Source: Sphingomonas sp.
GTDB taxonomy: Bacteria > Pseudomonadota > Alphaproteobacteria > Sphingomonadales > Sphingomonadaceae
Length of the DNA stretch: 42,173 bases
Assembly (NCBI GenBank): GCA_025935515.1
Contig: JAICVC010000002.1
Coordinates: forward strand, 1 to 42,173
Direction of reading: 5' to 3'
Positions 20,434 to 42,173 of this stretch are shown piece by piece; the first letter of the stretch is position 1, and each line of letters starts with the position of its first letter. A program made the position numbers and the translations under genes. The notes beneath the pieces are model-generated. The model was not told where the DNA came from, searched no databases, and worked only from the letters and a program-made list of their open reading frames with translations.

Positions 20434-23400
20434 TTGAGGATCCGGCGGCTCAAGCTCAGCGGCTTCAAGAGCTTCGTCGAACCGGCCGAGCTCAGGATCG
20501 AGCCGGGCCTGACCGGCGTCGTGGGCCCCAACGGCTGCGGCAAATCGAACCTGCTCGAGGCGATCCGCTGGACGATGGGGGAATCCAGCCCCAAGTCGCT
20601 CCGCGGCGGGGGCATGGACGATGTCATCTTTGCCGGCACCGCAACGCGGCCGCCGCGCGACTTCGCCGAAGTCTCAATCCTGGTCGAGCGCGACGCCGGA
20701 GACGAAGGCGGTTCCGGGGAGAGCGAGGTCACTCGGCGCATCGAGCGCGGCGCCGGGTCGGCCTACCGGATCGACGGGCGCGACGTACGCGCCAAGGACG
20801 TCTCGCTGCTGTTCGCGGACGCGGCGACGGGGGCCCATTCGCCGGCGCTGGTCAGCCAGGGCAAGATCGGCGCGGTCATCGCCGCCAAGCCCGTCGAGCG
20901 GCGTCAGCTGCTGGAGGAAGCGGCGGGCATTTCCGGGCTTCACGCGCGCCGCAAGGACGCCGAGCAAAAACTCCGCGCGGCCGAGGCCAATCTGACGCGG
21001 CTGGGGGAAATCCTCGGCGACCAGGAGCAGCGCGCGGCCCAGCTGAGACGGCAGGCGCGCGCGGCCGAGCGTTATCGCAAGCTGACCGACCAGATCCGCG
21101 GAGTCGAAGCCCGACTGCTTCACGCCCGCTGGGTCGAAGCCGAGCAGGCGGCTGAAGCCGCTCTAGCGGAAGCGAAGGCCGCGTCCGAGGAAGTCGAGCG
21201 AATCCACCAGGCCATCGCCGAGGCGCAGGCCGCGCACGATCGCGCCAACGAGTCGCTCGCCGCAAAGCGCAACGCGCTCACTGAGCTGCGCGAGCAAGGC
21301 CACCAGCTCGCGCATCAACTCGCGACGGCGCGCGCCCGGCGCGACACGGTGGCGCGCCGGTTCGCCGAATTGGATCGCCTCGATCGGTCGTTGACCGACG
21401 ACATCGCGCGCGAAGAAGCGCTGAAGGGCGATGCCGCGCATGCAATCGCCGTGCTCGAGCAAGAACGCGGGACGATCGCGCGGCGGCTCGAAGACTCTGA
21501 AGCCCACGCGGCCCGGATCGCGACCGAGCTCAGTGCCGCGGAGACTATTTCCCGCGAAGCCGAAGCCGCGCTTGCGGAATTGCTTGCTCGGCAGGCGGCA
21601 ATGCGTGCCGAGCGCCGGGTCGCCGAAGCCGCGCTCGAGGCGGCACGGGCACAACTCGGCCGAACCGAGCAGGAACGGCAGAAGCTCGCCGAGCAGCTCC
21701 AGGCGTTGGGCGATGGCAGCGACCAGGTCCGCGCCCGAGATGAGGCCGAAGCGAAGGCCAAGGCTGCCGCCGAAGCGCTGACGCAAGCCGAGGCGAAGCG
21801 TGTCGAAGCCGAGCAAGGGCGGACTTCGGCGGCCGAAGCGCGCGATTCCGCCGAAAGCCGGCTTGCATCGGCACGCGCCGGACTGTCCGCCGCACGGTCA
21901 GAGCATGAGGCGTTGGCCCGCGCGCTCGAGCACGGCGGCGGCGCGGCGATCGCCAGCCTGAAGGCCGAACCGGGCTATGAACGAGCGCTCGCGGCTGCAT
22001 TGGGGGAGGACGCCGACGCATCGCTTGGCGGCGACGCACCAAGGCGCTGGCAGGGAAGCGAAGTCCGGCCTGACGACCCCTCGTTGCCGGCCGGCACGGA
22101 ATGCCTGGCCGACCATGTCAGCGCGCCGGCGCAACTCATTCGCCGGCTCAGGCAGGTCGCCATTGCCGCTGATGATTTGGGGCAGGCGCTCGCCGTCGGC
22201 CAACGGCTCGTCACGCCCGACGGCCGGCTTCGCCGGTGGGACGGGTTTGTCGCGGCCGGCGCGGGGGCGGCCGCAGCCGAGCGGCTGTTGCGCGCCAATC
22301 GCCTCGCCCAGCTGGCGGACGAATTGCCCAGATTAGAAGCAGCGGTCGAAAAGGCTTCGGCGGAGCGGGACTCGGTGCTCGCGACGATGGAACAATGCCG
22401 CAAGGTCGCTGACGAAGCGCGGACTGCGGCGCTGGCGGCAGAGCGCGATGCGCGCGAGGCCGGCCGGGCGATCGACGCCGCGGCCGCCGCGCTGGAGCGC
22501 ATCGAGGCGCAATGTGCCAGCCTGATCCAGCGCCAGGCCGATCTGGAACCAGTGCTCGAAGCATCGCGCGAGGCCGCCGCGGCTGCGCAGCAGTCGCTGG
22601 CAGCGCTTGCCGATCCAGCCGCGCTCGAGCATGAAGTCGAAGCGTCACGCGCCAGCGCCGCAAGCGCGGCAAGCGCGGTTGCCGACAAGCGCGCCGAAGC
22701 CGCCACCAAGGCCCGCGAGACTGCGGCAGACCGCGAGCGGTCGACTGCTGCGGGGCGCGAACAGGCGGAATGGAGCAAGCGCCAGGCCGATGCCGAGCAT
22801 CGGCTCGGGTCTGCGATCGAGCGCCAGAAACAGCAGTCCAGCGAACGGGCGGACCTCTCGAAGGAACCCGCCGAGCTCGATGCCAGGATCGGCGAGCTCG
22901 AGCATTCCAACGACCAGAGCCAGGTTCGCATTGGCGAAGCCACCGCGGCGGAGCGCGAAGCGGAAGAGGCGGTCCTCGCCGCGAGCCAGGCAGTGTCGGC
23001 GATCAACGAACATTCGGCCGACACTCGGGAACGGCGCGCAGCCGCCGCTGCCCGCGCCGAGGCGCAGCAGGCGCGCAGCGCCGAGTTCGCCAGGGCGGCA
23101 GCCGACAAGTTCGAGGTGGTGCCGCAGCGATTGCCCGAGAAGCTCGGGTTCGATGCCGAGGAGCCGCGCAACGCCGAAGAGGAAGCGGCGGCCCTCGAAC
23201 GGCTGACCGGAGAGCGGGAACGGATCGGGCCGGTCAACCTCGTCGCAGAACAGGAGCTTGCCGAGCTCGACGCCGCACGCACCAAGGGTGCGGAGGAAGC
23301 CGAGGAGCTGACCCAGGCGATCAACCGGCTGCGGGGCTCGATCGGCAATCTGAACCGCGAAGGCCGGGTCCGGCTGCTCGAGGCCTATGAAAAGGTCGAT

Positions 23401-26087: not shown

Positions 26088-27515
26088 TTAACGGGCGAGC
26101 TCCTCCGCCCGCGCCTTGATGCGTTTGAGGTCGCGGAGGAACAGGCGCCTGCCCTCCCGGCGCGCAGCTTCGTCCGGAGCGCGGAGGATCGAGCTCGGGT
26201 GCGCCGTCACCCAGCATTCGCTGCCGTCGCCGAGCATCAGCGGCTCGCCGCGGACCTTCGAAATGGTCACGGCCTTGCCGACCAGCGAGCGCGCTGCGGT
26301 CGCGCCGAGCGCGACCGTGACCGGCGGTCGGATCAGCTCGCGCTCATGCTCGAGCCACCAGCGGCAGGCGCTGATCTCACCCGCGTCGGGCTTGTTGTGG
26401 ATCCGCCGCTTGCCGCGCATCACGAACTTGAAATGCTTGACCGCATTGGTGACGTAGACCGCCGAACGGTCGATCCCTGCGGCTTCGAGTGCCTCGTCGA
26501 ACAGTTGGCCCGCCGGGCCGACGAACGGCCGTCCGGCGAGATCCTCCTGGTCGCCCGGCTGCTCGCCCACGAACATGATTGAGGCATCGAGCGGACCTTC
26601 GCCGAAGACAGTTTGCGTCCCGAATTTGTAAAGCTCGCAGCGCGTGCACTTGCGCGCGTCTTTCAGCAGCGCCTCCCACGAGGCGCGGAGATTGCCTCCC
26701 GGCTCAATGGAGCGCTCCGCCTCGAGCGCGTGCAGCAATCCTTCCTTGGCATCAGAGCGGTCGATCATCTCCAGCTCGCGCATCCGGGCAGTGGCGATCA
26801 GGGGCTGAACGAGCGAAGTCTCCGGCATGTTGCGCCAATATTTCTTCGGCATCTCCTTCAGCATCGCGCCGACCTTCAGCCGCGCCGGATTGAAGATGCT
26901 CGAATAATAAGTGCGCCACGTCTCTTCGAGCGGATCGCCCGCGGGAGCATCGGCCGGCGCCGCCCCCGGGCCCTCGCTGAGGTTCGTTCCGTCCCAGTGG
27001 ATCGAAAGTTCCGGCGTCAGGATCGACCAGACCATGTTGGTGAAGCGGTCAACGAAAAAGCCCGCGGCCCGGCGGACAATATGATGTTCGGGTTCGAAAA
27101 AGGCCACGAAAAGACCGTCGAGCTCGCGGAACCGGACGAACGCATGCATTTTGTGGACGTCGCGACGAACGGCTTTGGCGAGGTCTTGCAGGCGCCGCAC
27201 CAGCGTGTCGGCGGCATCCTCGAGCGCATGCCTGTCGTACCTAAGACGAAGCAGCAGCGCATAGAGCAAGGCAAACCGCTCTGGGTCCGCATGGCACACG
27301 ACGTCGCCCGCCAGCTCGACGAAGCTTCGCGGCACGGGAAAGCTCGCCGCGGCTGGCTGAGTCGCGTCGGTGCCGAACAGGTCGGCCGCGCCGCCTTCAA
27401 CTTGCCAAACCACCGCACTGGCAGGGACCCCAGCTTCGGCAAGGTCGCGCGCCGCCTCACGCCAGCCGTCGAAGTCGTCCGGCGCCGACAAGGTGACGCG
27501 ATACACGTCGATCAT
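26088..27515 (-). CDS. DUF4130 domain fused to UdgX-type uracil-DNA-binding/glycosylase domain
   Basis: N-terminal MIDVYRVTLSAPDDFDGWREAARDLAEAGV..HKMHAFVRFRE..FEPEHHIVRRAAGFFVDRF..WSILTPE; C-terminal CTRCELYKFGTQTVFGEGPLDASIMFVGEQPGDQEDLAGRPFVGPAGQLFDEALEAAG and KRRIHNKP (26411-26397), the UdgX signature loop. Confidence 0.92.
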   Translation of the reverse strand: MIDVYRVTLSAPDDFDGWREAARDLAEAGVPASAVVWQVEGGAADLFGTDATQPAAASFPVPRSFVELAGDVVCHADPERFALLYALLLRLRYDRHALEDAADTLVRRLQDLAKAVRRDVHKMHAFVRFRELDGLFVAFFEPEHHIVRRAAGFFVDRFTNMVWSILTPELSIHWDGTNLSEGPGAAPADAPAGDPLEETWRTYYSSIFNPARLKVGAMLKEMPKKYWRNMPETSLVQPLIATARMRELEMIDRSDAKEGLLHALEAERSIEPGGNLRASWEALLKDARKCTRCELYKFGTQTVFGEGPLDASIMFVGEQPGDQEDLAGRPFVGPAGQLFDEALEAAGIDRSAVYVTNAVKHFKFVMRGKRRIHNKPDAGEISACRWWLEHERELIRPPVTVALGATAARSLVGKAVTISKVRGEPLMLGDGSECWVTAHPSSILRAPDEAARREGRRLFLRDLKRIKARAEELAR

Positions 27516-27534
27516 TGGCCCCTCGGCTAGCACG

Positions 27535-28782
27535 TCAGGCGGCGAACAGCTCCAGCTGCTGCCTTTTAGGACCGACAAGTGCACGCAAGTCGGCACGGTC
27601 AGTCAGCAATGTCGGGCGCCAATCGGTCGTGCTGATGAATGGGCGGACCTTTGCAACCGACAGCGTCATCCGCGCTATGTCGTCGAGCCTCAGCCTACGC
27701 CAGCGGCGTGAGCTGAGGATTCGCTCGACGGCCTTGATCCCGAGGCCCGGCACGCGGAGAAGCGATTCTCTCGGCGCCCGGTTCACGTCCACCGGAAAGC
27801 GCTCCCGGAACTTGAGCGCCCAGGCGAGCTTGGGGTCGATGTCGAGCGGAAGCATGCCCTGGCTGTCCGTCGCGCCCTGCACCTCCTGCGGAGCGAAGCC
27901 GTAGAAGCGCATCAGCCAATCGGACTGGTAGAGCCGGTGCTCGCGCATCAGCGGCGGCCGCTTGAGCGGAAGGACGGCGCTCGCGTCGGGGATGGGTGAA
28001 AATGCCGAGTAATAGACACGACGTAGACCGAACCGGTCGTAGAGCGTGCTTGCCTTGCCGACGATGTCGCGGTCGCTGGCGCAGTCGGCGCCCACGATCA
28101 TCTGCGTCGACTGACCGGCAGGTGCGAACCTGGGTGCCGACTTGAACCTCTTCGCTGCGTCCTTCGCACCCTCGATCGACGTCTTCATGTCGCTCATCGC
28201 CCCCTCGATCCGCGCTGCGTCCTTTTCGGGAGCCAGCCTTTCGAGCCCGCTTTCGGTTGGGAGCTCAACGTTGATCGACACCCGGTCGGCATAGCGGCCG
28301 GCCTGCCGAACCAGCTCCGGATCGGCGTCGGGAATGGTCTTGAGGTGGATATAGCCGCGAAAGTCGTGATCCTCGCGAAGGCTCCGCGCAACCTCGACGA
28401 TCTGTTCCATCGTGTAATTGGACGAGCGGATAATCCCAGACGAGAGGAACAGCCCTTCGATATAGTTGCGCTTGTAGAAAGCGAGCGTGAGCCGGACGAC
28501 CTCTTCGCTGGTGAAACGGGCGCGGCGGACATTCGAACTCTTGCGGTTGATGCAATAGGCGCAGTCGAAAATGCAGCTGTTGGTCAGCAGGATCTTCAGC
28601 AGCGAAATGCAGCGGCCGTCCGGCGCATAGGCGTGGCAGATGCCCATCCCCGCATCGGTCGAGCCGACGCCGGCTCCCTGCCGCGAATCCCGCCTCACCG
28701 AACCCGACGACGCACAGGACGCGTCGTACTTGGCGGCGTCGGCGAGAATTGCGAGTTTCGCTTGAATATCCAACAGGGCCAT
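27535..28782 (-). CDS. Putative DNA modification/repair radical SAM protein (TIGR03916-type)
   Basis: 415 aa; KLAILADAAKYDASC; CIFDCAYC (28575-28552) radical SAM cysteines; C-terminal HhH-like LLRVPGLGIKAVERILSSRR. Confidence 0.92.
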   Translation of the reverse strand: MALLDIQAKLAILADAAKYDASCASSGSVRRDSRQGAGVGSTDAGMGICHAYAPDGRCISLLKILLTNSCIFDCAYCINRKSSNVRRARFTSEEVVRLTLAFYKRNYIEGLFLSSGIIRSSNYTMEQIVEVARSLREDHDFRGYIHLKTIPDADPELVRQAGRYADRVSINVELPTESGLERLAPEKDAARIEGAMSDMKTSIEGAKDAAKRFKSAPRFAPAGQSTQMIVGADCASDRDIVGKASTLYDRFGLRRVYYSAFSPIPDASAVLPLKRPPLMREHRLYQSDWLMRFYGFAPQEVQGATDSQGMLPLDIDPKLAWALKFRERFPVDVNRAPRESLLRVPGLGIKAVERILSSRRWRRLRLDDIARMTLSVAKVRPFISTTDWRPTLLTDRADLRALVGPKRQQLELFAA

Positions 28783-28784
28783 TC

Positions 28785-28799
28785 GTTCTGCCTATGTTC
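28785..28799. promoter_or_regulatory. LexA (SOS) box, alphaproteobacterial direct-repeat type GTTC-N7-GTTC
   Basis: GTTCTGCCTATGTTC; both half-sites are GTTCT; 2 bp from the radical SAM start codon. Confidence 0.75.
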
Positions 28800-28900
28800 T
28801 CTAACAAGCTGTTGCAACACAATAACTTAGCAAAAGCGTGACTCACCACGAGGAACGCGCGGCTGACGGGGCCGTTCTCAGTTCGCAAGGAGGACGACGC

Positions 28901-29395
28901 ATGGCTGACGACCGGGAAATGGAGAAGCAATTCTGGAGCGCGCTTGAGGACAGCCCCTTCCTGATGCTGGGGGTGGAGGGCGCGCGTGACGGCGCGACGC
29001 AGCCGATGACTGCCAATTGCGAGGATCAGGACCGCGACGCAGCTCAGATGTGGTTTTTCACCGCAAGGGATCACGACCTGACCCGCTCGCTCGGGCAATC
29101 GAATCGCGCAATCGCGACCTACGCGGCCAAAGGCCATGACTTGTTCGCGAGCCTTCGCGGCACGCTCAGCATCTCGAACGATCAGGCGACGATCGATCGC
29201 TTGTGGAGCCCCGTGGTTGCCGAGTGGTATGAGGGAAAGGACGATCCGAAGCTGGCGCTCCTGCGCCTTGACGTCGAGGACGCGAAAATCTGGCAGAGCG
29301 ATATCGGTGGCTTCCTGAGGCCAGCCGTCAACAAGCTGTTCGGACAAAGGCCAGAGGCCGGCATGAATGACAAAGTCGCCGAGATCAGCTTCTGA
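28901..29395 (+). CDS. Pyridoxamine 5'-phosphate oxidase-like general stress protein
   Basis: EKQFWSALEDSPFLMLGVEG..MTANCEDQDRDAAQMWFFTARDHDLTRSL; AAGGAGGA Shine-Dalgarno upstream. Confidence 0.88.
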   Translation: MADDREMEKQFWSALEDSPFLMLGVEGARDGATQPMTANCEDQDRDAAQMWFFTARDHDLTRSLGQSNRAIATYAAKGHDLFASLRGTLSISNDQATIDRLWSPVVAEWYEGKDDPKLALLRLDVEDAKIWQSDIGGFLRPAVNKLFGQRPEAGMNDKVAEISF

Positions 29396-41521: not shown

Positions 41522-41572
41522 TCCGCGGAGTTAGTGCCGCAGACTGGCCTTTTGGTTTGAACGGCCAGTGAA

Positions 41573-42173
41573 CTAGGTGCCGGCCGCGGCCGGCCCGCCG
41601 ATCGAGCCCGCCTTGGGCCGCTTGGCCTTCGGGATCGAGGAGCCGGCGGCCGGAATCGCCGGGCCCTTGGTGCCGCCCCGGTCGATACTCTCGCCGGCGA
41701 GGACCTTCTGGATCTCGTCGCCCGACAGAGTCTCATATTCCAGCAGCGCCTGCGCCAGCGATTCTAGCTGGCCGCGATGCTCGTCGAGCAGGTGCTTGGC
41801 TCGCGCATAGCCGTCCTCGACGACCTTGCGGATTTCCTTGTCGATCGCCTGCGCGGTCTCGTTCGACATCTGGCGCTGACGGTTCACCGAATAGCCGAGG
41901 AACACCTCTTCATCGGGTTCCGCGTACTGCAGCGGCCCGAGCGCGTCGGACATGCCCCAGCGGGTGACCATGTCGCGCGCGAGCTGGGTTGCGTACTGGA
42001 TGTCGGACGAGGCACCGGAAGAGACCTTGTCGTAGCCGAAGATGACTTCCTCGGCGACGCGGCCGCCCATGGCGACCGCAAGGTCCGCATAGGCCTTACG
42101 GCGCGTCAGCGACACCTGATCGCGCTCCGGCAAACGCATGACCATCCCAAGTGCACGGCCACGCGGGATGATC
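41573..42173 (-). CDS. ftsH: ATP-dependent zinc metalloprotease FtsH (C-terminal part, truncated at the window edge)
   Basis: IIPRGRALGMVMRLPERDQVSLTRRKAYADLAVAMGGRVAEEVIFGYDKVSSGASSDIQYATQLARDMVTRWGMSDALGPLQY. Confidence 0.97.
   Translation of the reverse strand, partial: IIPRGRALGMVMRLPERDQVSLTRRKAYADLAVAMGGRVAEEVIFGYDKVSSGASSDIQYATQLARDMVTRWGMSDALGPLQYAEPDEEVFLGYSVNRQRQMSNETAQAIDKEIRKVVEDGYARAKHLLDEHRGQLESLAQALLEYETLSGDEIQKVLAGESIDRGGTKGPAIPAAGSSIPKAKRPKAGSIGGPAAAGT

Follow-up and report, generated by a model that had tools for sequence, protein, structure and literature searches.

The window, by which we mean the whole 42,173-nucleotide stretch of Sphingomonas sp. DNA that was analyzed, comes from a draft genome (77% complete, 1.89 Mb) and carries a radical-SAM gene followed, after a gap of 19 bp, by a gene for a DUF4130-UdgX fusion (Table 1). 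A first-pass annotation made from the sequence alone had described two co-directional genes with this spacing; both are real and lie on the minus strand, which it left unstated. The interval that it gave ended at 28799, the last position of a LexA-type box that its text did not name. A divergent plus-strand gene (28838-29395), which resembles pyridoxamine-phosphate-oxidase-type stress proteins, starts near this box and could share it.

Table 1. Features of the radical-SAM/DUF4130-UdgX operon in the window.
Feature	Position	Strand	Basis
Radical-SAM/HhH protein P0001, 415 aa	27535..28782	-	TIGR03916; CX3CX2C C70/C74/C77, conserved C23/C49/C58, C-terminal HhH
DUF4130-UdgX fusion CDS, complete, P0002, 475 aa	26088..27515	-	Start 19 bp past radical-SAM stop codon
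DUF4130 (TIGR03915) domain, N-terminal part of P0002	26817..27485	-	NCBIfam and Pfam matches; pairing in 39/39 genomes
UdgX (TIGR03914) domain, C-terminal part of P0002	26118..26813	-	Profile match, MsmUdgX residue matches, AlphaFold fold match
Predicted sliding-clamp (DnaN) docking motif QLELFA, residues 409-414 of radical-SAM protein	27541..27558	-	Homologue conservation
LexA-type SOS box GAACATAGGCAGAAC	28785..28799	-	2 bp 5' of radical-SAM start codon; box in 75/80 relatives

Profile searches with TIGR03914/15/16 and Pfam bear out the family assignments proposed in the first-pass annotation. The whole radical-SAM protein scores 564.2 bits against TIGR03916 (cut-off, 343.5). Residues 11-233 of the fusion, encoded beside the radical-SAM gene, belong to TIGR03915 (205.6 bits; cut-off, 112.25), residues 235-465 belong to TIGR03914 (313 bits; cut-off, 190), and the fusion protein also matches Pfam DUF4130 and Pfam UDG. 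The HhH-like segment that had been noticed at the radical-SAM C terminus scores poorly here (PF12836, E 0.006, under the cut-off) but recurs in all 17 diverse homologues scanned. The operon copy in the window is typical, with no departure from the TIGR03914/15/16 family.

Radical-SAM protein and its C-terminal tail

The cysteines recognized at the outset form a CX3CX2C motif for the SAM-binding cluster, and C70, C74, and C77 are invariant in the homologue alignments, as expected of TIGR03916 members. All 69 sequences compared share four further residues, C23, C49, H50, and C58, which are also retained in Bacteroidota, Bacillota, and Gammaproteobacteria and may bind a second iron-sulfur cluster, residues 23-48 being modeled at low confidence. 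A divergent Gemmatirosa homologue, for which no DUF4130 neighbor was detected, lacks all four. The AlphaFold model is confident (mean pLDDT, 86) and shows a radical-SAM core with helical elements after it, where the HhH region lies. Among its 50 best PDB matches, the top ones are MgmA, pyruvate-formate-lyase activating enzyme (PFL-AE), HydG, HydE, and biotin synthase (BioB), and no solved structure matches beyond weak HhH or core similarity.

The last residues of the protein, QLELFAA, follow a variable linker rich in proline. Q409 occurs in every one of 69 aligned homologues; 64 have L or M at position 410, 66 have L at position 412, and 65 have F, L, or I at position 413. Of 81 homologue tails, 71 fit the strict pattern Q[LM]xL[FLI], versus 2 of 731 tails of other ORFs from the same loci, and shuffled tails give 0.8 matches per set. 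Tails of beta- and gammaproteobacterial members read QMALW, QLSLF, QASLF, and similar. The bacterial clamp-binding consensus is a C-terminal QL(S/D)LF (PMC9690074), and QLELF is a motif of this type at the same end of the protein. A docking motif with an invariant Q at the radical-SAM C terminus suggests that the predicted radical-SAM/DUF4130 complex is probably clamp bound. We found no description of a clamp tail in this radical-SAM family in the literature searched, an absence that is not proof.

DUF4130 and UdgX domains

Both UdgX signatures singled out in the first-pass annotation, GEQPGDQED and KRRIH, are present, and the cross-linking residues are intact. The domain has the GEQPG motif A, the KRRIH R-loop with the counterparts of R107 and H109, and the HPS..LR motif B that define UdgX (PMC10359453). 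Residues E318, Q319, N357, R371, H373, H439, and R445 match E52, Q53, N91, R107, H109, H178, and R184 of MsmUdgX, all shown or proposed to be important in the Mycobacterium smegmatis protein, the cellular role of which is described as largely unknown (PMC10359453). The cross-linking histidine, H373, is conserved in 60/60 fusions. A CXXC pair in the fused UdgX, taken to be iron-sulfur ligands, is missing from six of these fusions that retain H373 (L119, L099, L117, L126, L122, and L097).

The AlphaFold model of the UdgX domain superimposes on MsmUdgX (6ajo) with a TM score of 0.88 by target length and 49% identity. DUF4130 is also modeled confidently (pLDDT mostly >90). All of the 50 rows listed by the fold search with the fusion model are UDG-domain matches, none being to DUF4130; no solved structure matched the latter domain, and the search for a second Pfam family gave no consistent candidate for it.

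Core pair and accessory UdgX

Conserved linkage of the radical-SAM and DUF4130 genes, which the first-pass annotation had noted from the NCBIfam models, holds across genomes. Among 190 genomes of Alphaproteobacteria, TIGR03916 exceeds its cut-off in 10 and DUF4130 in 10, with both in 9; the two genomes with one family only are G045, where the contig ends, and G182, whose radical-SAM gene is fragmentary. Caulobacter crescentus is a species in which all three families are present. Among 249 genomes of Pseudomonadota, a sample that overlaps in part with the first, radical-SAM is found in 39 and DUF4130 in 41, and every radical-SAM genome has both (39/39; 39/41 for DUF4130; hypergeometric P of ∼1e-43, uncorrected for relatedness). 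The pair is thus carried by ∼16% of the 249 genomes sampled. It also occurs in Bacteroidota and Bacillota; for pairing outside Pseudomonadota, the analysis covered named control genomes and individual loci. The pair is rarely broken: one locus (L068) has a radical-SAM gene and no DUF4130 within 6 kb downstream, and one genome (G389, locus L190) has DUF4130-UdgX and no radical-SAM gene in the 5 kb examined or elsewhere in the genome.

UdgX behaves differently. Six of the nine alphaproteobacterial pairs have it as a fusion and the other three lack it, and it occurs without the pair in ∼10 of the 190 genomes. At 80 named loci, UdgX accompanies DUF4130 in 68 (including L115, where an apparent frameshift splits the two domains), and DUF4130 stands alone without UdgX in the locus in 8; of the remaining four, two are truncated where the contig stops, and two have no DUF4130, one of these last lying at the edge of its contig. 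Several beta- and gammaproteobacterial genomes likewise have standalone DUF4130 without UdgX. Since pairing is near-total and UdgX is often missing or solitary, we conclude that radical-SAM/DUF4130 forms the core, to which UdgX is an accessory.

In six Sphingomonas and Sphingobium loci (L058, L059, L060, L083, L085, and L122), a hemerythrin-like gene lies between the radical-SAM and DUF4130-UdgX genes. Its product weakly matches the PA2171 persister family and the iron-sulfur repair protein RIC; the insert is absent from the window.

LexA boxes upstream of the operon

The window holds three boxes of the GAACN7GAAC type versus 1.08 expected, so that the operon box has no significance by itself; what is significant is that it is conserved across relatives. 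The two other matches lie at 21662-21676 and 41559-41573, with about one expected by chance. Of 80 named relatives, mostly alphaproteobacterial, 75 have an exact GAACN7GAAC or GTTCN7GTTC ≤150 bp upstream of the operon, versus 0.40 expected as estimated from the remainder of the same loci. Two xanthomonads, Acidovorax, a Chthoniobacteraceae bin, and one Niveispirillum make up the five without such a box. In 11 genomes assigned to the beta- and gammaproteobacteria by inference from phylum, differing class, and sequence, the E. coli-type CTGTN8ACAG occurs in 8 and CTGN10CAG in 1, ∼55 bp from the start at most; in addition to these, the Caballeronia operon has CTGTATAAATATACAG upstream. A plasmid locus of Pusillibacter (Clostridia) has two GAACN4GTTC sites ∼150 to 190 bp upstream.

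The host genome contains a lexA gene with a GTTCN7GTTC site directly upstream, and four exact GAACATN5GAAC sites versus none for a control pattern. These include the site at the operon, one directly upstream of a uvrA-like ORF, whose product we provisionally read as UvrA, and one directly upstream of a radical-SAM gene of the PA0069 family. The conserved promoter box makes the operon a predicted member of the LexA regulon, and the boxes suggest that LexA represses both genes. That SOS control is kept while the operator follows the LexA type of the host is strong evidence of selection on SOS regulation. On these sequence grounds, the "SOS-type" label of the first-pass annotation is supported.

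We take COG4277 to be the radical-SAM/HhH family of the present operon. A COG1573-COG4277 operon labeled "putative base excision repair" is described as SOS controlled in Bacteroidetes, with prior reports of such control in Verrucomicrobia and Alphaproteobacteria (PMC8565304). The open Caulobacter papers searched yielded no mention of the operon genes for the terms tried.

A GTCTCAN5TGAGAC palindrome lies ∼30 to 40 bp upstream of the radical-SAM start in Xanthomonas, Pseudoxanthomonas, and genome G270 (L114, L132, and L184, the last being the locus of L148 and L171), all without a known LexA box. It does not recur in the 1.42 Mb of sequence examined and is a candidate operator of a different repressor.

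Discussion

We consider it fairly probable that the operon encodes an SOS-induced DNA-lesion-processing complex that docks on the replication clamp and carries a covalent uracil/AP-site trap. LexA would repress both genes until SOS induction lifts the repression. The radical-SAM protein would then bind DNA through its HhH domain, a property of the family, and, as its invariant C-terminal QLELF suggests, the beta clamp, where it could process a base lesion by means of a 5'-deoxyadenosyl radical. DUF4130, to judge from co-occurrence, would be its dedicated partner, presumably in a physical complex, and in the fused form would bring UdgX to the same site. There, UdgX would excise uracil and covalently cap the abasic site, as established for MsmUdgX, whose residues are intact here, and would so shield the site until it is resolved. 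As the pair can do without UdgX, its core activity must be something other than this shielding. More tentatively, we suggest that the core may be a replication-fork radical-SAM enzyme, clamp docked with DUF4130, that performs an undescribed radical reaction on damaged bases and often brings along an abasic-capping glycosylase. DNA repair is also where earlier authors independently arrived (PMC3765255, PMC8565304).

The first-pass annotation proposed a DNA lesion or the UdgX-DNA adduct as the substrate of the radical-SAM protein and DUF4130. Processing or removal of the covalent adduct by the pair would agree with the fusion or operon linkage of UdgX to it in 68 of 80 relatives. We nevertheless regard this reading as improbable: 3 of 9 intact alphaproteobacterial pairs have no fused UdgX, standalone DUF4130 occurs without UdgX at 8 of the 80 loci and in the beta- and gammaproteobacterial genomes noted above, and UdgX has no pair to process its adduct in ∼10 of the 190 genomes. 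The 2013 paper that reported the gene association proposed that DUF4130 is a mutagenesis-related enzyme that might modify thymines (PMC3765255), from which one could picture a system in which thymine or some other base is modified by the pair and mutations are fixed with the help of UdgX. Both the SOS control and the clamp motif, which is of the translesion-polymerase kind, would suit such a system; we think it unlikely, however, as the two-gene unit has no polymerase gene and UdgX removes and caps uracil and does not make it.

Reversal of pyrimidine dimers by a photoproduct lyase of the SplB kind would fit a radical-SAM, DNA-binding, SOS-regulated protein that has been termed SplB-like (PMC3765255). 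Against this, which makes it quite improbable in our view, no SPL model appears among the NCBIfam matches up to an E value of 1, and the SplB fold is absent from the 50 best PDB structural matches of the radical-SAM model. SplB is also not known to depend on a DUF4130 partner. Finally, "modification/repair" in the NCBIfam name and the frequent location on plasmids (158 plasmid records) could point to DNA modification or defense against phages and not to repair. LexA control and the clamp motif speak against such a role, which we hold to be very improbable; its anti-phage form was rejected because there is no PADLOC match and phage or viral copies are very few.

That the pair is widespread and keeps SOS control with differing LexA sites suggests that it answers a damage problem common to many bacteria. 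The clamp-docking tail makes its site of action directly testable, the separation of the core from UdgX directs attention first to the radical-SAM/DUF4130 reaction, and the operon gives UdgX a genomic setting. The novelty claimed for the system at the outset stands in part: the DUF4130/radical-SAM/UDG association (2013, PMC3765255) and SOS control (PMC8565304) were already published, but we found no description of the radical-SAM/DUF4130 chemistry in the literature searched.

Comparison with known systems

HMCES/SRAP proteins are damage-linked abasic-site shields that act by covalent capture. They are unrelated to UdgX in fold and nucleophile, and their likeness to the last step proposed here, covalent capture of an abasic site, is by analogy alone. 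SplB has radical-SAM DNA repair in common with the proposed system, but neither HMM nor structure searches place the two in one family. The UdgX of M. smegmatis (6ajo, 6ail) shares all active-site residues, 49 to 51% identity, and a close fold with the domain in the window; unlike that single-domain protein, UdgX is here fused to DUF4130 and encoded next to a radical-SAM gene. Closest is the NCBIfam set TIGR03914/TIGR03915/TIGR03916, as covered in earlier work (PMC8565304, PMC3765255), with the same families, gene order, fusion, and SOS control; the clamp motif, the extra cysteines, and the core/accessory split were not found there, within the literature searched. The operon is a known SOS gene pair; what the present analysis adds is the clamp tail, the change of operator with LexA type, and the division into core and accessory parts.
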